Source: Flavobacteriales bacterium (GTDB lineage: Bacteria; Bacteroidota; Bacteroidia; Flavobacteriales_D; Parvicellaceae). From it: a stretch of DNA of 34,565 nt. The position numbers and the translations under genes are program-made. Below the pieces are notes generated by a model. The model saw only the letters and a list, made by a program, of their open reading frames with translations, was not told the DNA's origin and did no database searches. Each line of letters opens with the position of its first letter. The stretch's first letter is position 1. The stretch spans positions 1 through 34,565 of the forward strand of contig JAQWRG010000073.1 of assembly GCA_029243855.1 (NCBI GenBank), given 5' to 3'. Of the stretch, positions 1-29,075 are shown piece after piece.

Positions 1-847
1 AATCCTTGATTATAATTTTACGGCAGATGTAGAGAAGGAATTGGATTTAATAGCTAATGGAGATTTAGAGTGGACCAATATGTTGGATAAGTTCTATCAC
101 CCATTTCATAAAAACATAGAATCTACTCAGGAAAATGCTGCTAGAGCAAATGGAGAGAGATTGCTTGGTGAAGAGCCGGGTACTGGAGAATCAGTATATG
201 TTAAGCTTGGTAAGTATGGCCCAATTGCACAGATAGGTGAAACCACAGACGAAACCAAAAAACCAAAATTTGCTAGCTTAAAATCTGATCAAAATATCAA
301 AACAATTTCATTGGAAGAAGCTTTGTCTTTATTTCAATACCCAAAAAATTTAGGACAAATTGAAGGGGTTGATGTGTTTTTGAAATTAGGTAGGTTTGGC
401 CCTTACATACAAATTGATAAATTAAATGTTTCTGTTCCAAAAGGAATTGATGCCGATGATATAGGTTTATCTGAAGCTTTGGTTTGGGTTGAAGAAAAAA
501 AGAAAGCAGACGCTCCAATTATGCACTACGATGAGCTTCCTGTGTCAAAAGGAAAAGGAAGGTTTGGTCCTTTCATAAAATGGAATGAAATGTTTATTAA
601 TGTTTCTAAAAAATATGATTTTGACAATTTATCTGAATCTGATATCACAGAGCTAATTGAAAATAAAAAAAGAAAAGAGATTGAAAAGTTTGTTCACAAC
701 TGGGAAGAACAAGGGATATCAGTTCAAAAAGGCAGATGGGGAAGATATTTTGTTATTTCAGGAAAGAAAAAAATCCAATTAGATAAAAATCAAGATCCGG
801 CCGATATTACTCTGGAACAAGCAAAAGAAATGTTGAAGAAGAAATAG
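1..847 (+). CDS. topA: DNA topoisomerase I, C-terminal part (5' truncated by window edge)
   Basis: Relaxes negative supercoils by single-strand passage. The reading frame is open from base 2, so the protein enters from outside the window; the first visible residues (ILDYNFTADVEKELD) match the end of the type IA catalytic core, whose active-site tyrosine lies upstream. The rest is a series of C-terminal repeats with the pattern K-G-R/K-(W/F/Y)-G-x-(Y/F/I), seen in LGKYGP, LGRFGP, GKGRFGP and GRWGRY. These are Toprim-like C-terminal repeats, typical of Bacteroidota TopA, which lacks the zinc fingers of the E. coli enzyme. The TTG at base 41 is an internal codon, not a start. The next gene begins 6 bases after the stop, so the two are probably co-transcribed. 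Confidence 0.93.
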   Translation, partial: ILDYNFTADVEKELDLIANGDLEWTNMLDKFYHPFHKNIESTQENAARANGERLLGEEPGTGESVYVKLGKYGPIAQIGETTDETKKPKFASLKSDQNIKTISLEEALSLFQYPKNLGQIEGVDVFLKLGRFGPYIQIDKLNVSVPKGIDADDIGLSEALVWVEEKKKADAPIMHYDELPVSKGKGRFGPFIKWNEMFINVSKKYDFDNLSESDITELIENKKRKEIEKFVHNWEEQGISVQKGRWGRYFVISGKKKIQLDKNQDPADITLEQAKEMLKKK

Positions 848-853
848 CTTAAG

Positions 854-1999
854 ATGAATATTGATGTTTTTTTCAGTCCTGTTGATAAAATTGATGTTAA
901 AAAGGGAACAGCTGGCTCTTTTATAGATGCTTATCATAAAAGTTTTCCAAACTGGGAAGACGCAGACATTGTTTTTTTTACTGTTGATAGCTCCTCAAAT
1001 CAAGGCGACATTAATAAAACCATCGCTGTAGATCCATTTAGAATATACTTGTATGAACTTTTTTTAGCTAAAGCTGTTAAAATTGCTGATTTGGGGGTTT
1101 TGATAGCTGGCAAGCAAAAAAAAGACACAACGGCAGCAATTAAAGAAATTACTTCAGCTGTTAATAGTAAAGGAAAATTGCTTGTTATAATTGGTGGAGA
1201 ACAAGAATTAACTTATGCTAATTTTTTAGGTTATGAAAAATCAGAACAATTGGTAAATTTAGTTGTTGTTGATCAAAAGGTTAATCTTTTAATTGACGAT
1301 AAAACTTCTATAAGTTCCAATAATTTCCTTAACCATATTTTACTTCATGAGCCCAATTATTTATTTAATTTTTCTCAGATAGGTTATCAAAACTATTTTG
1401 TATCTAATGAGCAGCTCAAATTTTTTGATAATTTATATTTTGACTTGCTTCGATTAGGAGATGTCCAATCTGATATAAAAAAAACAGAACCTCTTCTTAG
1501 AAATGCAGATTTATTAAGTATTGATCTGTCATGCATCAGAAAAAGTGAATTCAATGGGTCTTTTGATGCAGGTCCTAATGGGTTGTTTGGAAATGAAATT
1601 TGTCAACTCATGAAGTATGCAGGGATTAGCGATAAACTCAGTAGTATTGGTTTACATAATTTTCAAAACAATGCTCTTTTTCAAGAGGACGCCATGTTGA
1701 TAGCTCAAATGATGTATTTTCTGATTACTGGATTTTCTGATAGAAAAGGAGATTTTCCAATTGGTACTAAACATGACCATTTAAAGTATGTTGTTTTTCA
1801 TGAAGAATTAAATCACGACTTAGTTTTTCATAAAAGCCAGAAATCTGATCGATGGTGGTTGGAAGTGCCGTATCCACCAATAAAAGAATTTAAATTTGAA
1901 AGACATCACTTGATTCCTTGTGATTTCTTAGACTATCAAAATGCTCAAGAAGGAATTATTCCAGACTTATGGTGGAGAACATATAGAAAACTTAATTAG
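854..1999 (+). CDS. Arginase/formimidoylglutamase-fold protein with degenerate metal site
   Basis: 381 residues of the ureohydrolase (arginase, agmatinase, HutG) fold. The fold is recognised from three motif remnants: GGEQE at residues 114-118 (family GGDHS), VDQKVN around 140-144 (family DAHxD), and SIDLSC around 222-227 (family SxDxDxxDP). Of the six manganese ligands only Asp140 and Asp224 remain; the others are Gln117, Lys142, Asn144 and Ser226. Relatives in Bacteroidota are often labelled formimidoylglutamase, but with these changes hydrolysis by the usual two-metal mechanism is doubtful. The gene follows topA by 6 bases and precedes the T9SS operon, which is a recurrent neighbourhood as far as I recall. 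The function is unknown; a structural or regulatory role is possible. Confidence 0.75.
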   Translation: MNIDVFFSPVDKIDVKKGTAGSFIDAYHKSFPNWEDADIVFFTVDSSSNQGDINKTIAVDPFRIYLYELFLAKAVKIADLGVLIAGKQKKDTTAAIKEITSAVNSKGKLLVIIGGEQELTYANFLGYEKSEQLVNLVVVDQKVNLLIDDKTSISSNNFLNHILLHEPNYLFNFSQIGYQNYFVSNEQLKFFDNLYFDLLRLGDVQSDIKKTEPLLRNADLLSIDLSCIRKSEFNGSFDAGPNGLFGNEICQLMKYAGISDKLSSIGLHNFQNNALFQEDAMLIAQMMYFLITGFSDRKGDFPIGTKHDHLKYVVFHEELNHDLVFHKSQKSDRWWLEVPYPPIKEFKFERHHLIPCDFLDYQNAQEGIIPDLWWRTYRKLN

Positions 2000-2128: not shown

Positions 2129-3067
2129 ATGAAGATATGTGCATATTTAATTGTTTTAGGATCGCTTTTTGGGACGTCTTTTGCCCAACAAGATTACCAA
2201 TTGACACATTATATGTTTGATAATTTATCATTTAACCCAGGATATGCTGGAATGAATAATAATATTTGTGGAACAATTATTAATCGTGAGCAGTGGGTTG
2301 GTTTTGCCGGTCGTCCGTCAACTAAATTGTTAAATGTTCATTCTCCAGTGGAAATGCTTAGGGGCGGTTTAGGGTTCTCTTACATCAGTGATAAGTTGGG
2401 TGTTGAAAGCAATAATATTGCAAGACTAAGTTATTCTTATCACATGGGCTTAGGTGCTGGTCAATTAGGTATTGGTTTAAGTGCAGGTATAATTCAGAAA
2501 AGTTTTGATGCAACATGGATCACACCTGATCAAGGTTCTTCGTATGTTCATGGAGACGATAATTCTATTCCTGAAAATAACGCAAGTGGTGTATCTCCTG
2601 ATATTAATTTAGGGGTCTTTTATAAAACCGAAGAGTTGTATTTAGGTATTTCAACAACTCATGTTGGTGGATTTAGTATGAAAGGATTAAATGTTCAAAA
2701 TGTTCATCACTATTGGATTACTGCAGGATACAAGTATGATTTAAATACAGACTTTAAAATCAGACCTAATTTGTTAATTAAATCTGATGCAGCTTCTACA
2801 ATAATGGATTTAAATGTTAACGTATTATTTAGAGACATGGCTTGGGGTGGACTAACATACAGAATAGGTGATGAAATTGCTCCTATGGTTGGATATCAAC
2901 ACTCTTTTACTGATGGAAGCACTTTAAGAATTGGATATGCTTATGGTATAACAACAAGTGTTATCGGAGATTATAGTACTGGTTCGCATGATATTATGCT
3001 AAACTATTGTTTCAGTTTAGCTAAACCACCAACAATAGAAAAATCTAAGAATCCAAGATTCTTATAA
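2129..3067 (+). CDS. porP: PorP/SprF-family type IX secretion outer-membrane protein
   Basis: Outer-membrane beta-barrel of the PorP/SprF family. Members assist the T9SS, some by anchoring type B cargo such as SprB at the surface. A Sec signal peptide is visible with likely cleavage after Ala19 (SFA|QQ). The mature protein opens with the family hallmark, tyrosine- and asparagine-rich and containing NPGYAGM and the INREQWVGFAG stretch, followed by short alternating strands ending in a C-terminal barrel strand with terminal phenylalanine (NPRFL). It is the first gene of the T9SS operon, as in the porP-porK-porL-porM-porN order of Porphyromonas. The start is the ATG directly in front of the signal peptide. 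Which cargo it serves cannot be told from sequence; the secreted type B protein at 29919-31865 is a local candidate. Confidence 0.9.
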   Translation: MKICAYLIVLGSLFGTSFAQQDYQLTHYMFDNLSFNPGYAGMNNNICGTIINREQWVGFAGRPSTKLLNVHSPVEMLRGGLGFSYISDKLGVESNNIARLSYSYHMGLGAGQLGIGLSAGIIQKSFDATWITPDQGSSYVHGDDNSIPENNASGVSPDINLGVFYKTEELYLGISTTHVGGFSMKGLNVQNVHHYWITAGYKYDLNTDFKIRPNLLIKSDAASTIMDLNVNVLFRDMAWGGLTYRIGDEIAPMVGYQHSFTDGSTLRIGYAYGITTSVIGDYSTGSHDIMLNYCFSLAKPPTIEKSKNPRFL

Positions 3068-3162: not shown

Positions 3163-4659
3163 ATGAAAAAGTTATTTTATTTTTTATCAATTGCCTTTAT
3201 CATCTCTAGCTGTGCTACAGGTGGTGGTGGGTCTGGTGAGGTTGTAGGTGTTTTAGGAAGACCTCTTTGGTATTCTACTGATCCCTATGGTATGTTATAC
3301 ATTCCTGCAGGAGGGTTTAACATGGGGCAAAGTGATCAAGATGTACCATTGTCTCATTATAACAATGCTAAAACAGTTTCTATTGGTGCATTTTATATGG
3401 ATCAAACTGAAATTACAAATAACGAATATCGTCAGTTTGTATTTTGGGTTAAAGATTCTATTGCTAGAAGAATTCTTGGGGCGGAATTTCCTGAAGAGTT
3501 TTTGGTAGAAACGTACGATGATGAACTTGAAGTTAAGGATGAAGAGGAATGGACTTTAAATTGGAACGCTAGATTTGAATACATTTCAGTTAATCCTTCT
3601 AGAGGGCACAACTCTGAATATGCACCACTATTAGCACCTATGTTTTTGAATGAAAGCGAAAGGTTTTACAACAGAAAAGAAATTGACACCAGAAAATTAA
3701 TGTTTGAATATTATTGGGTTGATTTGCAAGAGGCTGCTAAGAAAGGTAGACCTTTGGTGAAAAGAATTTCTAATACCGAATCTGATGAAGATGGTGAGCA
3801 TAGAACTAAAATGAAAAACCCTAACATGCCTTTCCCTGCTGAACCAGGTGAGGTTAGAGGTAAAGATCTTGATTTAGGTGTGAGAAACAGTAAGGGACAA
3901 AACAATTCAATTAGAGGTCATGAAGATAGATCACGTTTCATAATTAAAGAAACTATTAATGTTTATCCTGATACATTGTGTTGGATTCATGATTTCACAT
4001 ACAGCAACAACGAACACATGAGTAACATGTATTTTTGGCATCCTGCTTATGATGACTATCCTGTTGTTGGTGTAACTTGGCAACAAGCAAATGCTTTTAA
4101 TGTATGGAGAACACAATTGTTGAACAATTGGAGAAAAGGTCATTATCAGGCCTTTGTTCAAGACTTTAGGTTACCTAGTGAAGCAGAATGGGAATACGCA
4201 TCTAGAGGCGGATTGGATTTAAGTCCATACCCATGGGGTGGTCCTTACATTAGAAATTCAAGAGGTTGTTTCCTTGGGAACTTTAAACCTCTTAGAGGAA
4301 GGTATATGGAAGATGGTGGTTTTCATACTGTTAAGGCTAATTCGTACCATCCTAACGATTATGGGTTATACTGTATGGCAGGTAACGTTGCTGAGTGGTG
4401 TAGAACTGCTTACGATGAGTCAATTTATGAATATGGACACGACATGAATACTGAATACATATATCACGCATTAGATCACGACCCTCCTTCAATGAAAAGG
4501 AAGGTGATAAGAGGTGGTTCTTGGAAAGATATAGGATATTATCTTCAAACTGGTTCACGTTCATATGAATACCAGGATACAGCTAAATCTTATATTGGGT
4601 TTAGAAGTGTAATGAATTATTTAGGTCGAGGAGGCCCAAATAGAGAAGGAGACTTTTAA
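3163..4659 (+). CDS. gldK: T9SS ring lipoprotein GldK/PorK
   Basis: Outer-membrane lipoprotein that, with GldN, forms the periplasmic ring of the type IX secretion system. The N-terminus is a lipoprotein signal with lipobox ISSC, lipidated Cys17, followed by a glycine-rich linker. The body carries a formylglycine-generating-enzyme/sulfatase-modifying (FGE) fold: MDQTEITNNEYRQF near residue 75, LPSEAEWEYASRGG near 340, AGNVAEWC near 405 and IRGGSW near 448. GldK uses this fold as a scaffold, and I see no reason to predict an enzyme here. At 498 residues it has the usual size. A 95-base gap separates it from porP and 104 bases precede gldL. The 10-base string AGATATTGAA occurs twice in the upstream gap (3118-3127 and 3151-3160). 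Confidence 0.93.
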   Translation: MKKLFYFLSIAFIISSCATGGGGSGEVVGVLGRPLWYSTDPYGMLYIPAGGFNMGQSDQDVPLSHYNNAKTVSIGAFYMDQTEITNNEYRQFVFWVKDSIARRILGAEFPEEFLVETYDDELEVKDEEEWTLNWNARFEYISVNPSRGHNSEYAPLLAPMFLNESERFYNRKEIDTRKLMFEYYWVDLQEAAKKGRPLVKRISNTESDEDGEHRTKMKNPNMPFPAEPGEVRGKDLDLGVRNSKGQNNSIRGHEDRSRFIIKETINVYPDTLCWIHDFTYSNNEHMSNMYFWHPAYDDYPVVGVTWQQANAFNVWRTQLLNNWRKGHYQAFVQDFRLPSEAEWEYASRGGLDLSPYPWGGPYIRNSRGCFLGNFKPLRGRYMEDGGFHTVKANSYHPNDYGLYCMAGNVAEWCRTAYDESIYEYGHDMNTEYIYHALDHDPPSMKRKVIRGGSWKDIGYYLQTGSRSYEYQDTAKSYIGFRSVMNYLGRGGPNREGDF

Positions 4660-4763
4660 TTTTTCACTTATACAGTTAAATAATTGTATGAAATACACTT
4701 AGATTCATTAATAATTTATAATTTACAACACTTAAACATTTAATAATTAATAAAAAAAAAATC

Positions 4764-5633
4764 ATGAGCAGCGGAAATAGTTTTTTTGAAAGTAAGCAAT
4801 TCAAAACCATAATGAAATTTGTATATGGTTGGGGTGGAGCAATAGTAATTGTAGGAGCCATGTTTAAAATTCAACACTGGCCAGGTGCTACTATCATGTT
4901 GATTGGGGGATTAGGAATTGAGGCTGTTATTTTTACACTTTCTGCATTTGAACCACTTCATGAAGAAATTGATTGGACGTTAGCTTACCCTGAATTAGCA
5001 ATGGGTCATGGTGACGATGATGATGTTCATGAACTTCCGGCTATTAATAGTGATGATACAGTTATTGAACAGCTAGATAATATGTTAGCCAAGGCTAAAA
5101 TTGAGCCCGAATTGATTGAAAGTTTAGGTTCTGGCATGAGAAACTTAAGTGAAAATGCAAACAAATTAGGAGATATATCTTCGGCATCTGATGCCACTGA
5201 AGAATATGTTGATAGCCTTAAGGGTGCATCAGCAAAGGTTGGTGAAATGGGCGGTGTTTATGAACAAGCATCATCTTCAATTTCTGAAAAAGCCAATCAG
5301 TTGGGTAATGCATATTCTAAAGCTGCTGAATCTGTTGAGCAAATGACAGCTTCTGCTACTCCAGACTCTAATTATGGAGAGCAATTAGAGAAGGTATCTT
5401 CAAATTTAGCTGCTCTTAATAATGTTTATGAAATGCAAGTTAAAGGTGCAAACGAACATTTAAATGTAAGTAGCGAAATGTATTCAGGTATTAATGAGTT
5501 AATGGGTAATTTACATTCGTCTCTTGATGATACAAGAAAATACAAAGAAACGATGGCTCAGCTGACTGAAAACCTAGAATCATTGAATACCGTTTATGGT
5601 AACATGTTGTCAGCAATGAACGTGAACAAGTAA
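4764..5633 (+). CDS. gldL: T9SS/gliding motor inner-membrane protein GldL
   Basis: Cytoplasmic-membrane stator of the proton-driven GldLM motor that powers type IX secretion and gliding. Two transmembrane helices lie at about residues 20-34 and 42-62, joined by the short conserved KIQHWPG loop. The second helix contains Glu53 (GGLGIEAVIF), which corresponds to the essential intramembrane glutamate of Flavobacterium GldL. Residues from about 90 onward form a long hydrophilic cytoplasmic region rich in Ala, Ser, Asn and Glu, with probable coiled coils. The length of 289 residues is a little larger than the usual 215-ish of Flavobacterium GldL, the extra being in this tail. gldM follows 36 bases later. 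Confidence 0.93.
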   Translation: MSSGNSFFESKQFKTIMKFVYGWGGAIVIVGAMFKIQHWPGATIMLIGGLGIEAVIFTLSAFEPLHEEIDWTLAYPELAMGHGDDDDVHELPAINSDDTVIEQLDNMLAKAKIEPELIESLGSGMRNLSENANKLGDISSASDATEEYVDSLKGASAKVGEMGGVYEQASSSISEKANQLGNAYSKAAESVEQMTASATPDSNYGEQLEKVSSNLAALNNVYEMQVKGANEHLNVSSEMYSGINELMGNLHSSLDDTRKYKETMAQLTENLESLNTVYGNMLSAMNVNK

Positions 5634-5669
5634 TTTTAACTAAGTATACTAATTTAAACATACGTAGAT

Positions 5670-7703
5670 ATGGGAGGCGGTAAAGAAACCCCAAGACAAA
5701 AAATGATAGGATTGATGTACTTAGTACTTATGGCACTTCTTGCCATGAATGTATCTAAGGAGATCATTAATGCTTTTGTTACATTGAATAATAAACTTGA
5801 AAGTAGTATTGCTCAAACAGAGTCTTTTAATACAGAACTTTCATCTGAGTTTGCAACAAAACTTGCTACGCTAAAAGCAACAGGTGCACCACCTAATGAA
5901 GTTGCAAGGGTTGAGGTTCATAAAAATACTAATGATGAAGTAGTAAAACTTACCAGAGATATGTGTAATGATTTGGTAAGAAGAAATCTATATTTATTAA
6001 TCTCTGCTGTTGATGCTGGTACAACTTTTGAAGAATTTGAAGGAATTGAAGAAGCTATTGTTAGTGATGATGCAGATGCAAAAGTTAAACTGAAAGCTTT
6101 AGCTGATAAAGTCAATGCTCTTGCTGTTGTTGCTATTGATGAACATGCTGGAGATCATGGTGAAGAACATCACGATGAATACCACAACAACCTTTTTCAT
6201 ATTGACGATGCGGGTTACATTCATATTATGGACCTTTCTGGATATTCAAAAAAGGACGATTACGATACGCCAACAAGGTTATTAGCTGGTGAAAGTTTTG
6301 AAATGATTGCTCCTGAAGGTTTACATTTAATGGAGAACCTCCATCATTACAGAAATGATCTTATTGCCTTAATATCTAATTATAATAGTGATACAATGGA
6401 AGGTGGAGTTGTTTATAAGTATGAGTTTGACACATCCATGATAGAAGATCCTGATTTCTTAATAACAGAGCAAGATGCTTTAGATTTTGAAAATTTAGTT
6501 GATTCTGTAATAGATATTCAAGTTAAAGAACACAAGATTGCCGCTATAGATAAAGAAGCAATAAAGAATATTTTTGTTAGAATGACCATTCCTAAAAAGG
6601 TATTGAACCATGGTGAAGAATATCCGTGGATTTTTGGTCAATTTGATCATGCACCTATTGTTGCAGCTTCTGCAGTTATGACTTCTGTTAGGTCTGATGT
6701 TCTTCAAGTACAAACTTTGGCTTCACAGTTGGTTGCTTCAAGAGTTAAAGTACAAGCATTTAATTTTAATAAAATTGACCCATTAGCTTTTTCATCAACT
6801 TCTTATATTAATCAGGGTGATTCATTAGGTCTTAAAGTAATGATTGCTGCATACGATTCATCTGAAGCTATGGAATTAAGATATTGGGTAGATGATACAG
6901 CTCAAATAAGCAAGTCACATTCTGAACGTAACCTTGATAATATGCTTACATTCAATGGGAAAGCAGGACAAGAAGTTAGAATGTCTGGTTCTGTTGGTGA
7001 TCATATGTTGGTTGGAGAAATTGCAGTAAAAGAAAAGGGTGTTAAGAAATGGAAGCCCTGGAAATTTAATTACGCAGTTGGAGCACCAAATGCAGCTATT
7101 GCAAATGCTGACTTAATGGTACTTTATTTGAATTGGAAAAACAAAATTAAAGTTTCTGCCTCAGGCTACAAGCCTGAAACTATAAAAGTTACTGGTAGTT
7201 CAGGTGTTTCTATTACTTCTAAAGCTGATAAAGATGGTTTTCTGATATGTACCGTCAAAGGTAAAAGACCAAAAGATATTGTTACAATTACAGTTTCTGC
7301 TACAGATGATGATGGTAAAACTGTTGAATTAACAAAAGAAAAATTTAGAGTGTTTACACTGCCTAAACCACTTGCTTATTTTGGAGGTAAGGCATCTGGT
7401 AAAATGCCTAAAATTGAGGCCGGTATGCTTTCTAAAATTACAGCTTCATTAGGTGACAGTCCATTAAATGTTCCTTATACGGTTGTCGAGTTTGGTATGT
7501 ATGTTATTGTTGATGGAAATGCTTCAACTCTTAAGTCAAGATCTAATAAGCTTACTCCAAAAATGAAAGCAGCTGTAAAGAAAATGTCTAAGGGTGCATC
7601 ATTAACTTTTACGGGTGTCATGGTTCAACAATTGACTCCTAGTGGAGCAAAGACTGGTAAGCCATTCAAACTTCCAGTTGGTATTCAAATTAGACTAATG
7701 TAA
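5670..7703 (+). CDS. gldM: T9SS/gliding motor shaft protein GldM, enlarged
   Basis: Periplasm-spanning partner of GldL that carries the motor's rotation to the GldKN ring. The N-terminus shows the conserved cytoplasmic stub GGGKETPRQKMIG and one transmembrane helix at about residues 14-31, then a long periplasmic region. The end of domain D1 is recognisable (HAPIVAASAVMTSVRSDV), followed by beta-rich domains in the C-terminal half. At 677 residues it is about 150 longer than the roughly 515-residue Flavobacterium protein. Most of the excess is in D1, including an acidic, His-rich stretch at about residues 156-178 with six histidines. gldN starts 11 bases downstream, so the two are co-translated. 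Confidence 0.92.
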   Translation: MGGGKETPRQKMIGLMYLVLMALLAMNVSKEIINAFVTLNNKLESSIAQTESFNTELSSEFATKLATLKATGAPPNEVARVEVHKNTNDEVVKLTRDMCNDLVRRNLYLLISAVDAGTTFEEFEGIEEAIVSDDADAKVKLKALADKVNALAVVAIDEHAGDHGEEHHDEYHNNLFHIDDAGYIHIMDLSGYSKKDDYDTPTRLLAGESFEMIAPEGLHLMENLHHYRNDLIALISNYNSDTMEGGVVYKYEFDTSMIEDPDFLITEQDALDFENLVDSVIDIQVKEHKIAAIDKEAIKNIFVRMTIPKKVLNHGEEYPWIFGQFDHAPIVAASAVMTSVRSDVLQVQTLASQLVASRVKVQAFNFNKIDPLAFSSTSYINQGDSLGLKVMIAAYDSSEAMELRYWVDDTAQISKSHSERNLDNMLTFNGKAGQEVRMSGSVGDHMLVGEIAVKEKGVKKWKPWKFNYAVGAPNAAIANADLMVLYLNWKNKIKVSASGYKPETIKVTGSSGVSITSKADKDGFLICTVKGKRPKDIVTITVSATDDDGKTVELTKEKFRVFTLPKPLAYFGGKASGKMPKIEAGMLSKITASLGDSPLNVPYTVVEFGMYVIVDGNASTLKSRSNKLTPKMKAAVKKMSKGASLTFTGVMVQQLTPSGAKTGKPFKLPVGIQIRLM

Positions 7704-7714
7704 ATCTTATTATT

Positions 7715-8644
7715 ATGAAAAATTTTAAATTAATTTCAATATTTACCTTTTTAATTACATATACTGTTAATGCTCAGTTGCCTAGTTCTGGGGTTAGTTT
7801 AGAGTCAAATGTATTGGATGGTGTGTATGTGCAAGAACATATACCAACTAAACGTGTTGTTCAGTATCAACACCTACGAGAAGCTGATGTAATGTGGGCA
7901 AAGCGAATTTGGAGAGTTATCGATTTGAGAGAAAAAATGAATCACAAATTATACTTCCCTTTAGAAAAAATGTCTGATAGAATGTGTCTTTGGGATGTGA
8001 TTAAATACGGGGCTTTAGATGAAGGTAGTTTAACTGTTTATGATTTGAATGGGGTTGATAATGATGATAAGTTTAGGTATCCTATAAAACCTGCTAATGG
8101 CAATATAAACGATCCAGCATTTAAATTAGAATTACGAAAAAAGTTTGGTAGAGAAATTCAAGTCAAGCAATTTGATGAAAATGATGAAGTTATTATTGAC
8201 GATAATGGTGATCCTATTTTGAAAGATACTGTTGATCCTTATATTCCGTCTGATATTGTAAGATATGAACTTAAGGAAGATTGGTTTTTTGATAAGCAAC
8301 GTTCAGAAATGGATGTAAGGATTATTGGTATTTCCCCGGTAGTATATTCTCAAAACCCTGAAACTGGTGAGATTGTTGCACTATCTAATTTATTTTGGTT
8401 GTACTTTCCAGAATGTAGATATGTTTTTCAAAACTTCTTTGTATACAACCCTAGTAACGATGCACATAGAATGAGTTTTGACGATTTGTTTTGGAAAAGA
8501 GAGTTTACAAGTTTCATTAAGAAGGAAAGTAACGTTTTTGATAGAAAAATTTCTCCTAACTGGACTGGTTTAAATGCCTTGTTAGAATCTGAAAGAATTA
8601 GAGAAGAAATGTTCGAAAAGGAACACGATCTTTGGCATTATTAA
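7715..8644 (+). CDS. gldN: T9SS ring protein GldN/PorN
   Basis: Periplasmic partner of the GldK lipoprotein in the T9SS ring. There is a Sec signal peptide with likely cleavage after Ala20 (VNA|Q). The mature protein has the family's features: READVMWAKRIWRVIDLREKMN near residue 50, LFWLYFPECRYVF near 226 and DLFWKREFTSFIKKESN near 259. The 309-residue length is normal. It is the last gene of the operon; a strong intrinsic terminator follows 20 bases after the stop. Confidence 0.93.
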   Translation: MKNFKLISIFTFLITYTVNAQLPSSGVSLESNVLDGVYVQEHIPTKRVVQYQHLREADVMWAKRIWRVIDLREKMNHKLYFPLEKMSDRMCLWDVIKYGALDEGSLTVYDLNGVDNDDKFRYPIKPANGNINDPAFKLELRKKFGREIQVKQFDENDEVIIDDNGDPILKDTVDPYIPSDIVRYELKEDWFFDKQRSEMDVRIIGISPVVYSQNPETGEIVALSNLFWLYFPECRYVFQNFFVYNPSNDAHRMSFDDLFWKREFTSFIKKESNVFDRKISPNWTGLNALLESERIREEMFEKEHDLWHY

Positions 8645-12592: not shown

Positions 12593-13237
12593 ATGAGTAA
12601 ATCAAAATCAAAACAAAAATTATTTATTTCAGGTACAGAAAGCATCACTATTTTTAGCAACAAGCTTTTAGAATCAATAACAACTACACATCATATAGTT
12701 CCTTTCTTAATATTTATTCCTGTTGTGTTGTATCTTATTTATCAAACCGTTGTTTGTTGTTTAAATGGACAAATTGATAATTATTGGTATTTAACGATCT
12801 TAACAATTGGAGGTGTTTTGTTTTGGACTATTATTGAATATACTGGTCATAGATATGTTTTTCACAGTAATCCAAAATCTGATCTTGGCAAGAAATTGCT
12901 TTACCTTATTCATGGAGCTCATCATGATTACCCAAATGATCCAAAAAGATTAGTTGTACCGCCTATTGTATCTGTTACTGGAGGTATTTTACTTTATTTA
13001 TTGTCTTTGATTTTATTTGGCCCTTTTTATTCTGCCCCTTTCTTCGCCATGTTGGTACTATCTTATCTTGTATACGATTGGTTTCATTATGCTAGTCATC
13101 ATATGACTATAAAAAATAAGTACATAAGGATGTTAATCAAGCATCATCTTTTGCATCATTATAGAGACCCAGATAATGGATTTGGATTTACTACAACTTT
13201 GTGGGATAGAATTTTGAACAGTATGTTTAAAAACTGA
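12593..13237 (+). CDS. Fatty acid 2-hydroxylase-like di-iron membrane enzyme
   Basis: 214-residue integral membrane protein of the sterol desaturase/fatty acid hydroxylase superfamily, closest by pattern to the Scs7/FA2H group that hydroxylates the alpha carbon of fatty acids, often for sphingolipids. The full set of histidine boxes is present: H86-x4-H91 (GHRYVFH), H107-x2-HH111 (HGAHHDYPND), H165-x3-HH170 (HYASHH) and H185-x2-HH189 (HHLLHHY), which bind the two irons. Three or four membrane helices surround them. No cytochrome b5 domain is fused. Known Bacteroidota lipids include sphingolipids and sulfonolipids with 2-hydroxy acyl chains, a plausible destination. The gene is convergent with the flavin oxidase gene at the end of the catabolic operon and overlaps it by 11 bases. 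Confidence 0.8.
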   Translation: MSKSKSKQKLFISGTESITIFSNKLLESITTTHHIVPFLIFIPVVLYLIYQTVVCCLNGQIDNYWYLTILTIGGVLFWTIIEYTGHRYVFHSNPKSDLGKKLLYLIHGAHHDYPNDPKRLVVPPIVSVTGGILLYLLSLILFGPFYSAPFFAMLVLSYLVYDWFHYASHHMTIKNKYIRMLIKHHLLHHYRDPDNGFGFTTTLWDRILNSMFKN

Positions 13238-14567
13238 TTTTTTTTCCTGAAACTTGAGCTGCAGCCCATCTTCCACTTCTTAATGCTCCCTCAACAGTTG
13301 CACAACTCATGTAATCACCTGCAAAAATCACATCTTTATTTTGCTGGTTTTTAATTTTATTTGCTGTAGTATATCTGCCTACTTCATGTAATGGAATTGC
13401 ATTATTTCTTTTGAATAACGCTACCGGTTTGGCTTCTTTTGGAAGTTTACCTTCAAAAGTAATGGCCATTTCCCAAATGCGTTTAAATACCTCTTCATCG
13501 TCATCTATTTCAATTAGTTCTCTTGATGGTTTATCTAATATGAAAACACTAATTAGTTCTTTTCCCTCAGGAACTTTAATAGAATCTTTGCATTTTTGTT
13601 TATGTAAAACAATGGCTCCTATGGGTGTTTTCCACTCTCCACAAGGGTAATAATAAGCAAACATGTTTTTTACTTCCTCTTCATTGACGGTAAAGGTTGC
13701 ATGAACATTACTTACGTATTTTTGAGTACTTATAAAATCAGATATTCCTTTCTCTAATTTGAAATTAATTGAAATGTTTTGAAATGCATTGGCTGGCGTT
13801 GCTACTATTATTTTATCCACTTCAATAGTTGATTCAATGTTGTCTTTTATGTAAGATATTTCAATCTTATTTTCTTTTTTTGAAAGTTGATTTACTGTAG
13901 ATTTCATATGTAATTCTACATTTGCTAATAACTTTTCAGATATTCTGGACATTCCTTTTTTAAATGTATAAAACTTTGCATCTGCTGCTCTTCCTTGTAA
14001 TACAGTAGTCATTGCTCTAGAAACATCATTGCATGAAAAATACCAAAAGGGTTCGACTCCCGGTCTTATTAGGTATTGGTAAACGTTTTCAGACATGGTG
14101 TTTGTTGCCCATTCTGCTATTGATGAATCATCGTATTTTGCTAATTTTTCTGGAGATACTAAATCCAGATTTCTTCTTTGAAGCGTAAGTTTAATGGTGC
14201 TCCAAATCATTATTAGTTTATCTTTTCTAGTTATAAAAGGAAGCCTCCAAAATGTTTTTAAATCTCCGAAAGTAAACTCTGCGAGTACATCTTTGTAACG
14301 TAATCCTACTCTTCTTTCTAACTCAATAACCTCGTCATCAAGATTAAGTTTCGTAACTAATTCTTTAAGTAGGGGATAAAAGTTGGTGAAAAAACTAGCT
14401 CCAGTATCAAACCTAATTTCTCCATCATTATAGGCGTGCGTTCGGCCTCCAATAAAACTTTCCTTTTCAAAGACAGTTACATCGTAACCTTCTTTTTGTA
14501 AATAATAGGCTGCTGAAGCACCTGCTGGCCCAGCGCCTATTATTCCAATTTTATTATTTTTATTCAT
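13227..14567 (-). CDS. FAD-dependent amine-oxidase-like oxidoreductase
   Basis: 446 residues with an N-terminal Rossmann FAD motif IGIIGAGPAGASAA (GAGPAG at 11-16), a downstream acidic residue (VFEKESFIGGRTHA), and a C-terminal FAD-contact segment (VIFAGDYMSCATVEGALRSG). This is the flavin amine oxidase superfamily, which includes protoporphyrinogen oxidase, phytoene desaturase, squalene-associated desaturases and monoamine oxidases. I see no feature that fixes the substrate. It is the last gene of the 13-gene minus-strand operon, 12 bases downstream of the dehydrogenase-SCP2 gene, so it should be expressed with the acyl-CoA pathway. Either it oxidises a product of that pathway or it was joined to it by chance. 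Its end overlaps the convergent hydroxylase gene. Confidence 0.75.
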   Translation of the reverse strand: MNKNNKIGIIGAGPAGASAAYYLQKEGYDVTVFEKESFIGGRTHAYNDGEIRFDTGASFFTNFYPLLKELVTKLNLDDEVIELERRVGLRYKDVLAEFTFGDLKTFWRLPFITRKDKLIMIWSTIKLTLQRRNLDLVSPEKLAKYDDSSIAEWATNTMSENVYQYLIRPGVEPFWYFSCNDVSRAMTTVLQGRAADAKFYTFKKGMSRISEKLLANVELHMKSTVNQLSKKENKIEISYIKDNIESTIEVDKIIVATPANAFQNISINFKLEKGISDFISTQKYVSNVHATFTVNEEEVKNMFAYYYPCGEWKTPIGAIVLHKQKCKDSIKVPEGKELISVFILDKPSRELIEIDDDEEVFKRIWEMAITFEGKLPKEAKPVALFKRNNAIPLHEVGRYTTANKIKNQQNKDVIFAGDYMSCATVEGALRSGRWAAAQVSGKKISF

Positions 14568-14579
14568 AAATAATGGAGA

Positions 14580-16136
14580 TTAACCCATAAGTGATTGAAG
14601 CTTAAGGGCAATGCCTGTATCTCCTTTTACTTTCATTTTACCTGCCATAAATGCTCCCATTGGATTTAACTCTCCTTTAACCATTGCTGTGAAATCTTCT
14701 AGACTAACATCAACGGTACAATTGGCTTCCGCATCATCACCTGAAACAACATTTCCTCCGTTTGTTCCATCTATAACAATTTGATTTTCACCAAAATTTA
14801 ATTTTAATATTGATCCAAGTGCATCTGCTGATGCCGCTTTTTCTTTCATGGCATTAAGTGTGTTTTCGTAACTCATAATTTTTGTATTTGTTGTATTTTG
14901 ATTGTTTGATTTTGTTTTTTCTTCTTTTATAGAATCTGTTTTTTTAGTATTTGAAATAGGGTTCGATTTTGAGGTTGTTTTGGCGTATGATTTATCATCA
15001 ATAACCATTTTGGCAATGATTTCTCTCATAATTTCAGATGTTCCTCCTCCTATTGTACCAATTCTACTGTCTCTAAACATTCTAGCCATTTTGTACTCTT
15101 CCATGTATCCATATCCACCAAAAAATTGAAGACATTGATACATAACTTTGTCTGATAATTCAGTTCCTAACAGTTTTGCCATTGAGCATTCTTTGACTAC
15201 ATATTCTCCATCAGCATGCAGTTTACAACAGTTGTAAACAAAATATTTTATGCACTCAATTTCTGATGCCATTTGTGCTACTCTATGTCTTAATACTTGG
15301 AATTTATTTATTGATCTTCCGAATGCTTCTCTTTCAGACATATACTGAAGCGAATAATCTAAAGCTGATTCAGAACCAGCATAACCACCTATAGCTCCAA
15401 CCAATCGTTCAAGCTGTAAGCCTCCCATTAGATAAAAGAATCCTTGGTTTTCATCTCCTAATAAATTTTCTACAGGAACTTTCACATTATCAAAAGCCAG
15501 TTCGGCTGTATCTGATGCATGCCATCCTAGTTTTTTTAGCTTAGTAGCCGAAACTCCATCTGCATGTCTGTCAATTACCAATAAGCTAATTCCATTAAAG
15601 CCCTCACTTGGATCGGTCTTAACAACTGTTATTAATACATCTCCGTAAACGCCACTAGTTATAAACGTTTTAGATCCGTTAACTATATAATGGTCGCCTT
15701 CTCTTACAGCAGTAGTTCTAATGTTAGCAACATCTGATCCTGCATTGGGTTCAGTGATGGCTATGGAACAAATGGCATCTCCCGTTATTGCTTTGGTAAG
15801 GTATTTTTCTTTTATAAATTCAGAACCGTGTTTAAATAAATATGGGCTTGACATGTATTGTTGGACTGAAAATGCCGCCATAAATCCTCCAGAAAAAACC
15901 TTAGAGATTTCTTCAACAAATACAACTGAGTAAAAGAAGTCTGCATCCGTTCCACCATATTTTTCAGGATAGTTTAGGCCCAAGTAACCCATGTCACCAA
16001 ATTTTTTGAAAACTTCTTTGGGAATTCTTTGCTCTTCTTCCCATTTTTCAATGTTTGGAATAACTTCTTTTGCTAAAAAGTCTTTTAGTCCTTGACGGAA
16101 CATTTCGTGATCTTCGTTAAAATAGTAATTTTTCAT
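14580..16136 (-). CDS. Acyl-CoA dehydrogenase fused to SCP2 lipid-carrier domain
   Basis: 518 residues. Residues 1 to about 385 are a complete FAD acyl-CoA dehydrogenase of the long-chain/isovaleryl type. The catalytic Glu is probably in helix G (GGLQLERLVGA), because the alternative site in the YEGT motif is Gly here (IGGGTSEI). The flavin-contact string CSIAITEPNAGSD is intact. A low-complexity Ser/Lys/Thr/Asn linker runs from about 387 to 420. Residues 421-518 are an SCP2 sterol/fatty-acyl carrier domain (NPMGAFMAGKMKVKGD...ALKLQSLMG) that begins with an in-frame ATG at 14874-14876. The fusion would hold the bulky acyl-CoA near its dehydrogenase. The neighbour at 16141 is a paralogue of the first part without the SCP2 domain. 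The substrate is likely long or branched. Confidence 0.85.
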   Translation of the reverse strand: MKNYYFNEDHEMFRQGLKDFLAKEVIPNIEKWEEEQRIPKEVFKKFGDMGYLGLNYPEKYGGTDADFFYSVVFVEEISKVFSGGFMAAFSVQQYMSSPYLFKHGSEFIKEKYLTKAITGDAICSIAITEPNAGSDVANIRTTAVREGDHYIVNGSKTFITSGVYGDVLITVVKTDPSEGFNGISLLVIDRHADGVSATKLKKLGWHASDTAELAFDNVKVPVENLLGDENQGFFYLMGGLQLERLVGAIGGYAGSESALDYSLQYMSEREAFGRSINKFQVLRHRVAQMASEIECIKYFVYNCCKLHADGEYVVKECSMAKLLGTELSDKVMYQCLQFFGGYGYMEEYKMARMFRDSRIGTIGGGTSEIMREIIAKMVIDDKSYAKTTSKSNPISNTKKTDSIKEEKTKSNNQNTTNTKIMSYENTLNAMKEKAASADALGSILKLNFGENQIVIDGTNGGNVVSGDDAEANCTVDVSLEDFTAMVKGELNPMGAFMAGKMKVKGDTGIALKLQSLMG

Positions 16137-16140
16137 GTTG

Positions 16141-17280
16141 TTATTGTATAATTTGTTTTGCTATTATTTCTCTCATAATTTCTGATGTTCCTCCTCCAAT
16201 TGTTCCTATTCTGCTGTCTCTAAATATTCTAGCAGCCTGATATTCTTCCATATATCCATAGCCACCTAAAAATTGAAGAACTTCATAACTTACTTTATCC
16301 ATAAGTTCTGTACTTAGTAACTTTACCATAGCGCATTGAGTTGTTACATCGTATCCATCGCTAAAGGATCTACAAATTTGATAGTTGAACGATTTTAAAC
16401 TCTCAATTTCTGAGGAGAGCTGAGCTACTCTGTGTCTTAATTCTTGGAATTTTGAAAGAGGTCTTCCAAAAGCTTCTCTTTCACTTAAATATTTAAGTCC
16501 ATAATCAAGAGCATATTCTGCTGAAGCCAAAGCACCTGTTGATAGAACTAGTCGTTCTAACTCAAATCTTTGCATAATGTAGTAAAAGCCTTGATTTTCT
16601 TCTCCAATTAAATGCTCAAAAGGAACTTTTACATTATCAAAAGAAATTTCTCCAGTATCTGAAGCATGCCATCCTAACTTTTTTAAAGGTGTAGCACTAA
16701 CACCTTCCCATTTGCTGTCAATTAACATCATGCTAATTCCCTCAAATCCGGTGTTTTCAGTTCTGGTTGCTACAACCATAAAATCGCTGTATACCCCGTT
16801 GGTGATAAACGTTTTTGATCCGTTTAAAATATAATGATTTTCTTTTTTGACTGCACTAGTTTTAATGGATGCTACATCTGATCCAGCATTAGGTTCTGTA
16901 ATGGCAAGGCATCCTATTAAATCCCCATTAATAGCGGGTTTTAAATAGTTGGTTTTTAAAAAATCATTTCCATTTTTTTGAAGATGTTCCATGGCTAATG
17001 TAGAATGAGCCAACAAAGAGGCAGCTGTTCCGCCAGAGTTGCATTTGTTTAATTCTTCAATCAATATGATGGTATAAAAAACATCTGTATTTACTCCTCC
17101 ATATTTTTCATCCATCCCCAATCCATAATATCCCATTTCACCCATTTTCTTGAATGCAGATTTTGAGACTCTTCCATTTTCTTCCCACTGGTCAATTTCA
17201 GGCACTATTTCTTTATCTAAAAAATCTCTAAGAGATTTTCTGAATAAATTATGTTCATCATGGAAATAAAAACTGTGCAT
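16141..17280 (-). CDS. Acyl-CoA dehydrogenase, long-chain/isovaleryl-type
   Basis: 379 residues, complete. Introduces the alpha-beta double bond into an acyl-CoA and passes electrons to ETF. Visible features are GCLAITEPNAGSDVAS (flavin contact), LGWHASDTGEISFDNVKVP, FELERLVLS with the probable helix-G catalytic Glu, and GYGYMEEYQAARIFRDSRIGTIGGGTSEIMRE at the C-terminus, where the YEGT glutamate of MCAD is replaced by Gly. That combination is shared with LCAD and isovaleryl-CoA dehydrogenase, both of which accept branched chains. It is a clear tandem paralogue of the next gene's dehydrogenase part, with 4 bases between them. It follows the HSDL2-like SDR by 2 bases. Confidence 0.9.
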   Translation of the reverse strand: MHSFYFHDEHNLFRKSLRDFLDKEIVPEIDQWEENGRVSKSAFKKMGEMGYYGLGMDEKYGGVNTDVFYTIILIEELNKCNSGGTAASLLAHSTLAMEHLQKNGNDFLKTNYLKPAINGDLIGCLAITEPNAGSDVASIKTSAVKKENHYILNGSKTFITNGVYSDFMVVATRTENTGFEGISMMLIDSKWEGVSATPLKKLGWHASDTGEISFDNVKVPFEHLIGEENQGFYYIMQRFELERLVLSTGALASAEYALDYGLKYLSEREAFGRPLSKFQELRHRVAQLSSEIESLKSFNYQICRSFSDGYDVTTQCAMVKLLSTELMDKVSYEVLQFLGGYGYMEEYQAARIFRDSRIGTIGGGTSEIMREIIAKQIIQ

Positions 17281-17282
17281 TT

Positions 17283-18095
17283 TTAAACAAATAAATCTTT
17301 CATTAAACTCATTTCAGGATTAACAGCATATTTATTGAAATCAGTAATGCCTTTATTTCTTAATAGGTCTTCATCAATGAAAAAATTACCAGTACATTCT
17401 TTACTGTTTTGTTTAATTATTTCAAATGCTGCATCAGCCATTATTTCTGGTGTTCTACTTGCCTGAATCAATGCATCTCCACCTAATAAGTTTTTAACGG
17501 CTGCTGTTGCTATTGTAGTTTTTGGCCACAAAGCATTGGCTGCAATGCCTTTAGATTTTAATTCATTAGATTGACCTAAAACGGTCATGCTCATTCCGAA
17601 TTTGCTCATTGTGTAAGCAAGATGAGCACCAAACCATGAGGGGTCTAAGTTTAAAGGTGGAGAAAGCGTTAAAATATGGGGGTTTTCTGCATTTTTAAGA
17701 TGAGGAATACATGTCTTTGAAACCATGAAAGTTCCTCTAACATTAATGTCGTGCATCAAGTCATAACGTTTCATAGACGTTTGCTCTGTAGGGGTTAGTC
17801 CTATTGCACTTGCATTGTTTACAAGTACATCAATTCCTCCAAATTCTTTTACAGTTTTATTGACAGCTTCATTTACCATCTCTTCATCTCTAATGTCAAC
17901 CACAATAGGTAATGCTTTTACCCCTATTTTTTCTATTTCTTCAGCTGCCGTAAAAATTGTTCCATCTAATTTTGGATGAGGTTCAGCTGTTTTAGCAGCA
18001 ACAACTATATTAAATCCATTGTTTGCAAGTTTTAATGCTATTGCTTTGCCAATTCCTCGGCTACTCCCTGTTATAAATGCTGTTTTATTACTCAT
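17283..18095 (-). CDS. HSDL2-like short-chain dehydrogenase (no SCP2 domain)
   Basis: 270-residue NAD(P)-dependent short-chain dehydrogenase. The glycine motif GSSRGIG (10-16), NNAS (93-96) and catalytic YTMSK (Tyr161, Lys165) are present. The string AAKTAEPHPKLDGTIFTAAEEIE at 33-55 and SPPLNLDPSWF, NALWPKT, and TGNFFIDED are characteristic of the SDR domain of mammalian HSDL2, a peroxisomal/mitochondrial lipid enzyme. Human HSDL2 carries a C-terminal SCP2 domain that is lacking here; the domain occurs instead on the acyl-CoA dehydrogenase two genes downstream. A role as 3-hydroxyacyl-CoA or hydroxy-lipid dehydrogenase in the same pathway is inferred from context. The gene sits 10 bases after the aldehyde dehydrogenase. 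Confidence 0.85.
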   Translation of the reverse strand: MSNKTAFITGSSRGIGKAIALKLANNGFNIVVAAKTAEPHPKLDGTIFTAAEEIEKIGVKALPIVVDIRDEEMVNEAVNKTVKEFGGIDVLVNNASAIGLTPTEQTSMKRYDLMHDINVRGTFMVSKTCIPHLKNAENPHILTLSPPLNLDPSWFGAHLAYTMSKFGMSMTVLGQSNELKSKGIAANALWPKTTIATAAVKNLLGGDALIQASRTPEIMADAAFEIIKQNSKECTGNFFIDEDLLRNKGITDFNKYAVNPEMSLMKDLFV

Positions 18096-18105
18096 GGTTG
18101 GTTTT

Positions 18106-19524
18106 TTAAATGCTTACAATTTTTTTAAAATATTTGAAAATTTTACTATTAAATGGAGGATAAATAGGTTTTAATGATCCCCAGTTTCTTTTAACGATAC
18201 CTCTTGGGTTTGAAAAGTCCTCAAAACTGTGCTTTCCATTTGATTTGCCTATTCCGCTATTGTTTAACCCTCCAAAAGGCAAATGAGGGTTTACGGATGT
18301 TAACATTAATTCATTTATGCATGATCCGCCTGAAGCAGTATTGTTCAAGAAGTAATTAATATTTGATTTTTTATTACTCATTACGTAAAATGCTAATGGA
18401 GTAGGAAGTTGTTGAACCGTTTTGATGGCATCCTCCTTGGTTTTATAAGAGATTATTGGAAGAATTGGGCCGAAAATTTCATGGATCATAATGTCCATTT
18501 CCATACTTACGTTATTTATTAATGTTGGGCTTATAAATTTTTCTTCTTCATTAAAATCTCCTCCAAATTCAATTTTTGCTCCATTTGATATAGCTTTATC
18601 TACAAGGTCTTTTATTCTCTTAAAATTGGTTTTATTGATAATTCGTCCATAGTCTTTTGATGAATGAATTCCTTTTTTATCACTATTGTAGAATTTATTA
18701 ATCGTATTCTCAAATGCTGTTATAAATTCTTCAAGTTTGGTTTCTTGAACTAATGCGTAATCTGGAGCAATACAGGTTTGACCGCTATTCATTGATTTAG
18801 CCCATGCGATTTTTTCTGCAGCATTTTTTGTATTACATGTTTCGTCAATAATTACAGGTGATTTCCCTCCTAATTCTAAGGTTACTCCACTAAGGTTTTT
18901 AGCAGCAGCAGTCATAACAATTTTGCCCACTTTAGGACTTCCAGTAAAATAAATGTGATTAAAAGGTTGCTTTAGTAGTTCAGTAGCTAATTCAGCATTT
19001 CCTTGCATTACAGTTACTTCATTTTCATCAAATAGTTCTTTTATCATAGCGCTGATAACCGAAGAGGTGTTGCTAGAAATTTCAGAAGGTTTGATAATTA
19101 CAGCATTTCCTGCAGCTATAGCATATATAAGTGGGTAAATGGTGAGTTGAAATGGGTAATTCCAAGGAGATATAATTAGTACGGTACCTTTGCCTTCATA
19201 CTTAATGTATGATGACATTCCAGTCATAGTTATTGGAGAGGGCACATGCTCATCTTTCATCCAAGATTTTAGTTTTTTTACGACTTCTTTAATAGTTAAA
19301 ATAAGAGGAGAAATTTCAGTAGTGATTACTTCTTCATTTGATTTGTGTAAATCATTAAAAAGCGCCTCAGCAATTAATTTGTGGTTAGCAGGATTAAGGA
19401 TATATTCAAGAATACTTTTAATCTTTGTTATTCTTTCGTTTGCAGAAGAGTTTTTTAAAGAATTTAGATTCTCAACATCACTTTGTAATTCAAATATTCT
19501 TAAAACTTCTTTACTGTTTTCCAT
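18106..19524 (-). CDS. ALDH3-type fatty aldehyde dehydrogenase
   Basis: 472 residues of the aldehyde dehydrogenase superfamily, class 3 (fatty aldehyde dehydrogenase) subtype. It oxidises an aldehyde to the free acid with NAD(P). Catalytic Cys251 is in NSGQTCIAPDYAL, the general-base Glu217 in LELGGKSP, and the cofactor site in ISPWNYPFQL and FTGSPKVGK. The end of the chain is basic and hydrophobic (FNSKIFKYFKKIVSI), possibly a membrane-association tail as in vertebrate ALDH3A2. The gene follows the acyl-CoA synthetase by 26 bases, which suggests the order aldehyde to acid to acyl-CoA. The natural aldehyde could be long-chain or isoprenoid; sequence does not decide. Confidence 0.88.
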   Translation of the reverse strand: MENSKEVLRIFELQSDVENLNSLKNSSANERITKIKSILEYILNPANHKLIAEALFNDLHKSNEEVITTEISPLILTIKEVVKKLKSWMKDEHVPSPITMTGMSSYIKYEGKGTVLIISPWNYPFQLTIYPLIYAIAAGNAVIIKPSEISSNTSSVISAMIKELFDENEVTVMQGNAELATELLKQPFNHIYFTGSPKVGKIVMTAAAKNLSGVTLELGGKSPVIIDETCNTKNAAEKIAWAKSMNSGQTCIAPDYALVQETKLEEFITAFENTINKFYNSDKKGIHSSKDYGRIINKTNFKRIKDLVDKAISNGAKIEFGGDFNEEEKFISPTLINNVSMEMDIMIHEIFGPILPIISYKTKEDAIKTVQQLPTPLAFYVMSNKKSNINYFLNNTASGGSCINELMLTSVNPHLPFGGLNNSGIGKSNGKHSFEDFSNPRGIVKRNWGSLKPIYPPFNSKIFKYFKKIVSI

Positions 19525-19550
19525 AATCTTTTGCTTAAATTTTAGTTAAA

Positions 19551-21212: not shown

Positions 21213-21217
21213 ATTTT

Positions 21218-23002: not shown

Positions 23003-23815
23003 TTATTGTGGGTTCAAAAAATCTCTCATTACTCTGGCTAATCCCATTTTGTCGTAGTTTAAATGTTGTGCTCCATCTACATATAATGTAGTTCCTGTAC
23101 AATAGGCAGATAAATCGCTTGCAAAAAAACATACTGCGTTTGAAACATCTTTTACAGTTCCAAAACGATGCATAGGAATAGCCTTCTTAGCCTCTTCAAA
23201 CATGTCTTGTACAGGTTTTGGGTAAGTGTCTAACCCTGTTGATTCTACAATACCTGGCGCAACACAGTTTATGCGAATGTTAAAATCGCTCCACTCTTGT
23301 GCTATTGTTTTTGTTATGTTCTCAACACCAGCCCTTGCTGCTCCAGTATGAATCATCCCTGGGAAGCCTCTTAAAATATCGGCTATAATATTGACAATAA
23401 TTCCATTTTTTTGAGGGATGAAAAATGCATTTCCCATTTCTCTAATCATGTAAAATGTTCCGTTAAGGTTGTTGTTGATGACAGCGTTCCAACCTTTATC
23501 GTTAATGTACTCAGTTAAAGCAGGAAATTGTCCGCCAGCATTGTTTATTAAAATATCAAGTCTTCCACATTTTTCTTGAATTACCTTAACCAACCCTTGA
23601 ATTTCCTCAGTTTTTCTAATGTCACATGGGTAGGAGTACACTGTTCCAAATTTGGTCAATTCCTCAGCTGCTTTTTTTAACGGTTCTTCTTTTCTAGATG
23701 CAATTATAACCGTTGCGCCAAGTTGTAATAGATCTTTAGCTATTTGATATCCAATACCACTTCTTCCACCTGTAACTAAGGCTATTTTATTGTTAAATGT
23801 GTTTTTGTTAAACAT
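23003..23815 (-). CDS. PECR-like SDR, likely enoyl-CoA reductase type
   Basis: 270-residue short-chain dehydrogenase with cofactor motif TGGRSGIG (15-22) and NNAGGQF (91-97). The classical YxxxK is absent: the aligned positions are Thr157 and Arg161 (HTGAARAGV). The same change (SGAAR) occurs in mammalian PECR, the peroxisomal trans-2-enoyl-CoA reductase, and the shared NNAGGQF...GW.AV...L.GTFYM pattern supports this kinship. It probably reduces a double bond in an unsaturated acyl-CoA, using NADPH, rather than a ketone. Such a step would be useful for unsaturated isoprenoid chains. Its ATG overlaps the stop of the BKACE gene by one base (TAATG), indicating translational coupling. Confidence 0.8.
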   Translation of the reverse strand: MFNKNTFNNKIALVTGGRSGIGYQIAKDLLQLGATVIIASRKEEPLKKAAEELTKFGTVYSYPCDIRKTEEIQGLVKVIQEKCGRLDILINNAGGQFPALTEYINDKGWNAVINNNLNGTFYMIREMGNAFFIPQKNGIIVNIIADILRGFPGMIHTGAARAGVENITKTIAQEWSDFNIRINCVAPGIVESTGLDTYPKPVQDMFEEAKKAIPMHRFGTVKDVSNAVCFFASDLSAYCTGTTLYVDGAQHLNYDKMGLARVMRDFLNPQ

Positions 23816-24684: not shown

Positions 24685-24693
24685 ATCGTTTTG

Positions 24694-27470: not shown

Positions 27471-27471
27471 A

Positions 27472-29073: not shown

Positions 29074-29075
29074 GT

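Follow-up and report, generated by a model that had tools for sequence, protein, structure and literature searches.

Several members of the arginase (ureohydrolase) family are known that depart from the canonical enzymes in their activity or in their metal ligands. MefH-beta of metformin hydrolase and its relative DmgH-beta belong to the ureohydrolase family and work with an active alpha subunit, and in MefH-beta four of the six ligands are replaced and the crystal is reported to contain no metal (PMC11399263). The arginase-like protein of Trypanosoma brucei is likewise an arginase-family protein, though a eukaryotic one, and is reported to be inactive as an arginase (Hai et al. 2015, as described in PMC6522824). 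The arginase of Zymomonas has a cysteine in place of the first histidine ligand and still binds two metal ions (PMC6988801), and judging a protein by any one ligand therefore needs caution. The formimidoylglutamase HutG (TIGR01227; PDB 3m1r) is the closest solved relative by profile comparison and provides the best NCBIfam match.

Here we describe a new family of pseudo-ureohydrolases that extends through most of a bacterial class and carries an added C-terminal domain. It shares its descent from the ureohydrolases with MefH-beta and DmgH-beta, and the representative analysed here, like MefH-beta, has other residues at four of the six ligand positions. It differs from HutG in that ligands have been lost, a C-terminal domain has been added, the proteins form a separate clade, and the genes do not lie in a hut-like operon. 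Among the open-licence papers listed by literature searches, no title or abstract concerns the gene, and the main text of a transposon screen (PMC10936215) contains none of the words 'arginase', 'topA' or 'topoisomerase'.

The locus and its arginase-family protein

The window, by which we mean the whole 34,565-nucleotide stretch of DNA that was analysed, has at its left end the following genes:

2..847, plus strand: 3' end of topA, 6 nt upstream of the pseudo-ureohydrolase gene and its likely operon partner
854..1999, plus strand: pseudo-ureohydrolase gene, 381 aa, supported by the open reading frame, Pfam, NCBIfam and the family profile
2129..3067, plus strand: porP/sprF, 129 nt downstream, the first gene of a type IX secretion system (T9SS) cluster
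3163..8644, plus strand: gldK, gldL, gldM and gldN, gene-order neighbours given for context

The reading frame starts with an ATG at 854, has no internal stops, and its stop codon ends at 1999; together with the identities of the genes in the order topA, pseudo-ureohydrolase gene, porP/sprF, gldK, gldL, gldM, gldN, this agrees with the first-pass annotation, which had described an intact gene adjoining topA and the T9SS operon. The closest named relative of the protein, at 73% identity, is in a Crocinitomicaceae metagenome-assembled genome (locus L001) with the same gene order. Two sigma-70-like sites are present between the gene and porP (shuffled sequences give 1.9), and a scan of that interval found no terminator and no exact TAnnTTTG. 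The N-terminus contains no hydrophobic stretch by eye, and the protein is presumably cytosolic. Elsewhere in the window (13227-29732, minus strand) there is a thirteen-gene run that looks like an operon for acyl-CoA or branched-chain catabolism, with three acyl-CoA dehydrogenases, a carboxyl transferase, a biotin carboxylase, an enoyl-CoA hydratase, a BKACE protein, an AMP-binding protein, two short-chain dehydrogenases, an aldehyde dehydrogenase, an amine oxidase and a TetR regulator.

The protein belongs to the arginase superfamily by descent, as seen both in its match to Pfam Arginase (PF00491), which passes the cut-off narrowly (26.8 bits against a gathering score of 22; E 4.3e-6 for the single protein), and in a match of a 26-member family profile to the formimidoylglutamase 3m1r (E 6.1e-18), which covers the whole arginase domain at profile positions 36-300. 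When the window sequence alone is compared with the PDB there is no significant match (best E 0.12). The score against TIGR01227, the HutG formimidoylglutamase model, is 30.8, far from the curated cut-off of 229.15, and we concur with the earlier opinion that formimidoylglutamase would be a misleading name. A full-length structure prediction from three sequences was poor (mean pLDDT 44.7), and we build no claim about the fold on it.

In a quick tree with 65 family rows, a single branch (SH-aLRT 100) separates the family from 12 canonical relatives, with long branches flagged for L116, L117, L119, L158 and L159. The comparisons below use 125 family sequences, which are not a random sample: before exclusions the set consisted of the 88 best matches listed, 40 picked for spread, two more, and the window protein, and from it we removed L003 (the window again), L004, L051, L057 and L061 (duplicates) and L029 (internal stop).

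Ordered loss of the metal ligands

The three ligand motifs of the arginase domain can be located in the window protein both by reading the sequence and by alignment:

1193..1204, plus strand: first ligand motif, G114-G-E-Q117, in which the histidine is replaced by glutamine
1271..1285, plus strand: second ligand motif, D140-Q-K142-V-N144, with Asp140 kept and the histidine and second aspartate replaced
1517..1531, plus strand: third ligand motif, S222-I-D224-L-S226, with Asp224 kept and Asp226 replaced

The protein thus keeps two of the six metal ligands, short of the six histidines and aspartates of an active ureohydrolase, and both the sequence and the alignment bear out the earlier observation that Gln117, Lys142, Asn144 and Ser226 replace the other four. 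The same columns in ten canonical relatives read mostly H, D-x-H-x-D and D-x-D, with all six ligands in seven of them and five in three. Three otherwise canonical arginase-family proteins, at L137:8855-9820, L139:8718-9692 and L136:8623-9534, each have one ligand changed (His to Asn, Asp to Asn, and Asp to Cys, respectively).

Not one of the 125 family sequences, the window included, has all six ligands; four are kept in 10 sequences, three in 96, two in nine, one in nine and none in one. Position 117 is a glutamine in 102 of the 125, and the nine that retain His117 are L121-L123 (f19), L124 (one of two f20 sequences), L111 and L128 (two of four from f15), L066, L105 and L108. His142 is absent from 120 sequences and present in five, the same is true of Asp226, and the two never occur together. 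At position 144 there is an aspartate in 104 sequences and an asparagine in 13, and the window protein with its Asn144 goes further than most members. The comparison with homologues that the first-pass annotation had proposed thus finds the changes at 117, 142 and 226 to be typical of the family but not the one at 144, and the description of four of six ligands as changed fits the lineage of the window and not the group, 96 of whose 125 sequences keep three.

The losses follow an order. We take positions 142 and 226 to correspond to His126 and Asp234 of human arginase I, which bind metal B only, and positions 117, 140, 144 and 224 to His101, Asp124, Asp128 and Asp232, which bind metal A. Among the 116 less divergent members the two positions specific for metal B drift, with columns 142 and 226 at the 86th and 66th entropy percentiles, and the remaining four are conserved, with 117, 140, 144 and 224 at the 19th, 7th, 15th and 7th. 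With the columns read through these arginase I assignments, the family has lost site B and retains site A, in which glutamine has taken the place of a histidine. The loss of the second metal site means that the proteins should no longer hydrolyse guanidino compounds by a two-metal mechanism.

Most members retain much of site A, which makes a one-metal enzyme conceivable. The family might still be catalytic through an altered chemistry that needs a single metal at site A, or no metal, and draws on new conserved residues such as Arg200, Glu212, Arg216, Cys250 and Cys356. The combination of Gln, Asp, Asp and Asp at 117, 140, 144 and 224 in most members is compatible with this, as are several charged or cysteine residues that are close to invariant, but the window protein has Asn144, and the divergent members drop Asp140 and Asp224 while keeping Trp334. 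No hydrolytic site that dispenses with two metals is known in the arginase superfamily, and we consider such an enzyme unlikely.

A second alternative is that the protein pairs with an active paralogue from the arginase family and forms the inactive half of a mixed complex. Its genome does encode two arginase-family paralogues with all six ligands, and the extent of ligand replacement is that reported for MefH-beta of metformin hydrolase (PMC11399263). However, nine of 80 genomes of the order, which are 96-99% complete, have only one Pfam Arginase match (G029, G045, G053, G059, G068, G080, G083, G089 and G098), and all nine have a family member; these sole matches range in E from 4.8e-5 or 1.4e-4 to 1.5e-23, weak as family members score, and in G053 the place listed for the match is the family gene itself. 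Single cases may hide a paralogue in an assembly gap, but unlike MefH-beta and DmgH-beta with their active alpha subunits, the family member in these nine of 80 genomes is apparently the sole arginase-family match, which makes an obligate active partner unlikely, and we regard a mixed complex of this kind as very improbable.

The C-terminal domain and conservation of the family

Two further features distinguish the family from the canonical enzymes:

1487..1501, plus strand: family-specific motif E212-P-x-x-R216, with Glu212 and Arg216 in 124 of 125 sequences
1769..1996, plus strand: C-terminal domain, aa 306-381, absent from the ten canonical relatives and predicted to form four strands and two helices

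At the place of the C-terminal domain the ten canonical sequences have 0-4 residues, and no such addition is known in MefH-beta or DmgH-beta. The secondary structure of these last 76 residues is predicted from an 80-residue model with a pLDDT of 81.4. No Pfam, NCBIfam or PDB match to the domain exceeds the cut-off or significance level, and fold searches of residues 302-381 against solved structures gave a best E of 0.84 with Foldseek and a best Z of 3.7 with VIA-align. We considered and rejected three candidate relatives: a phage gp84-like domain, for which there are just two gp84 chains at E about 0.095 (profile against PDB); the PARP WGR domain, of which Foldseek gave several matches, none better than E 2.4, which is not evidence; and a beta-galactosidase model, matched in NCBIfam by one of 27 C-terminal pieces at E 0.0042.

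Gln179 and Trp334 are invariant in all 125 sequences; Glu212, Arg216, Gly257, Phe325 and Cys356 are present in 124, and Tyr361 in 122. The divergent members lose Asp140 and Asp224 as well but keep Trp334 and, in eight of nine, Cys356. Five members are highly diverged (L116:8812-9975, L117:8853-9905, L118:8954-9784, L119:8552-9556 and L120:8696-9529) and still have Trp334; the four of these that were tested, L116-L119, have no Pfam Arginase match.

The family is found in most of the sampled genomes of the class, 241 of 256 matching a 16-member profile at 1e-12 and a wider profile adding G591 and G619 to give 243. In the order of the window the single protein has a match with E up to 0.001 in 188 of 199 genomes, although the matches in G111 and G123 are weak and possibly paralogues. 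In a sample of the phylum 157 of 345 genomes match at 0.001, among them 82 of the 85 with GldK over cut-off; the other 75 matches are outside the class, and the four of these that were fetched (L137-L140) have five or six ligands. A search of viral contigs found no relative of the family.

The family is under strong purifying selection. Of 111 pairs more than 80% identical, 69 have dS below 2, and for these the median dN/dS is 0.040 and the maximum 0.135; between the window and L001 dN is 0.171 and dS 1.265. The loss of ligands, and one copy with an internal stop, in G081, could be taken as signs of a decaying gene that is heading for loss, but its detection in 243 of the 256 class genomes, a dN/dS of about 0.04 and the nearly invariant residues make this scarcely credible.

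We favor, with moderate confidence, the explanation that the protein is a pseudo-ureohydrolase which has lost catalysis and which selection maintains for a binding or scaffold role. This is close to the first-pass suggestion of a conserved, probably inactive protein with a non-catalytic role, of which the conservation is borne out by the clade-wide degenerate site, the intact gene and purifying selection, and the inactivity is inferred. An ancestral arginase-family protein would have gained the C-terminal domain and lost its second metal site; the old pocket, formed in most members by Gln117, Asp140, Asp144 and Asp224, may accommodate a small ligand or a single cation, and a partner is probably bound through the C-terminal domain, in which Trp334 and Cys356 lie.

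topA and the type IX secretion genes as neighbours

In 92 of 122 loci with room, topA lies directly upstream on the same strand, often 0-15 nt away, and in 30 it is not a neighbour. Downstream, 84 of 119 loci have porP or gldK following in the same orientation. Where there is room on both sides (119 loci), topA precedes the gene and porP or gldK follows it in 82, topA alone is a neighbour in eight, a T9SS gene alone in two, and neither in 27; the 82 loci with both span 25 of 33 family labels (two of the labels being named records). We conclude that topA stands nearer to the gene than the T9SS genes do and stays beside it more consistently.

No common neighbour was found among the loci scanned outside the topA locus. 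RmuC is a neighbour in both of the f14 loci scanned and an S13 carboxypeptidase in two of four from f15; a 2Fe-2S oxidoreductase is upstream in two of three f19 loci and a MacB-like gene in the third; and DUF4837 is beside the gene in one f107 locus, with other genes elsewhere.

The gene order raises the possibility, already hinted at in the first-pass annotation, that the protein assists or regulates the machinery for type IX secretion and gliding. The 84 loci with porP or gldK downstream speak for this, as do the 82 of 85 phylum-sample genomes with GldK that have the gene, and in three of five f18 loci it adjoins a different cluster, one that includes genes for PorP, an FGE-domain protein and a C25 peptidase; at L118, the one f18 locus scanned with Pfam, the neighbours are a Mur ligase, an FGE-domain protein, PorP/SprF and a C25 peptidase. 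However, the presence of the gene does not track that of the T9SS. Two genomes, G725 (99% complete) and G589 (95%), have the gene and no GldN, GldL or SprA matches, although in G589, where topA and the gene are still adjacent, the contig ends 467 bases beyond, and an assembly gap could thus account for the missing markers. Conversely, eight genomes have GldN and SprA with the gene undetected (G556, G643, G533, G669, G689, G705, G386 and G445), where a diverged copy may escape the search. Gene, GldN and SprA are all absent from G426, G434, G536, G561 and G737, the last two being small genomes, and within f22 the gene is missing both from genomes with T9SS markers (G669, G689) and from genomes without them (G426, G434, G536). 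In the class as a whole the gene is missing from five of eight GldN-negative genomes versus eight of 248 GldN-positive ones; we do not count this as support because three of the five are from one family and two are small genomes.

In the order sample, the gene and GldN are jointly absent from seven genomes; another four have GldN without the gene (G007, G102, G112 and G194), and four have the gene without GldN (G078, G122, G129 and G143). The joint absences are largely explained by the adjacency of the genes, which can drop together into one assembly gap, and G145 and G173, without gene and GldN, still have SprA. In G007 and G194 the T9SS contig starts at porP or gldK, and the gene may lie beyond the contig end, whereas G112 has the full region upstream of porP and no copy of the gene in it. 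SprA alone is a weak marker of the T9SS, since G200 (region L153), a single-contig genome, has GldK, GldL and GldN with no SprA match; either its SprA has diverged or its T9SS is reduced. We therefore reject co-occurrence with the T9SS as proof of function and read the link as shared position rather than demonstrated function; with topA closer, eight loci having it without a T9SS neighbour and two the reverse, a role in secretion or gliding seems rather unlikely. The window also contains a T9SS cargo, a protein of 648 aa that bears a CHU_C type IX secretion signal domain (29919-31865, minus strand).

Because the gene is directly behind topA in many families, it is probably expressed in step with topoisomerase I, with which it may be co-transcribed, and not with the T9SS operon. 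A more specific proposal is that the protein is a regulatory partner of DNA topoisomerase I, in which site B would have been given up, site A would act as a conserved Gln/Asp/Asp/Asp ligand pocket and the new domain with the conserved tryptophan and cysteine would dock on TopA or DNA, so that supercoiling would respond to a metabolite or cation; we offer this as a speculative and on present evidence improbable elaboration, and prefer the broader reading of a binding or scaffold protein.

The gene is retained under strong selection in most sampled members of the class, yet membership in the arginase superfamily attracts enzyme names that are probably misleading. The order in which ligands were lost, with site B drifting and site A conserved apart from the substitution of glutamine for histidine, illustrates clearly how a binding protein may arise from a two-metal enzyme.
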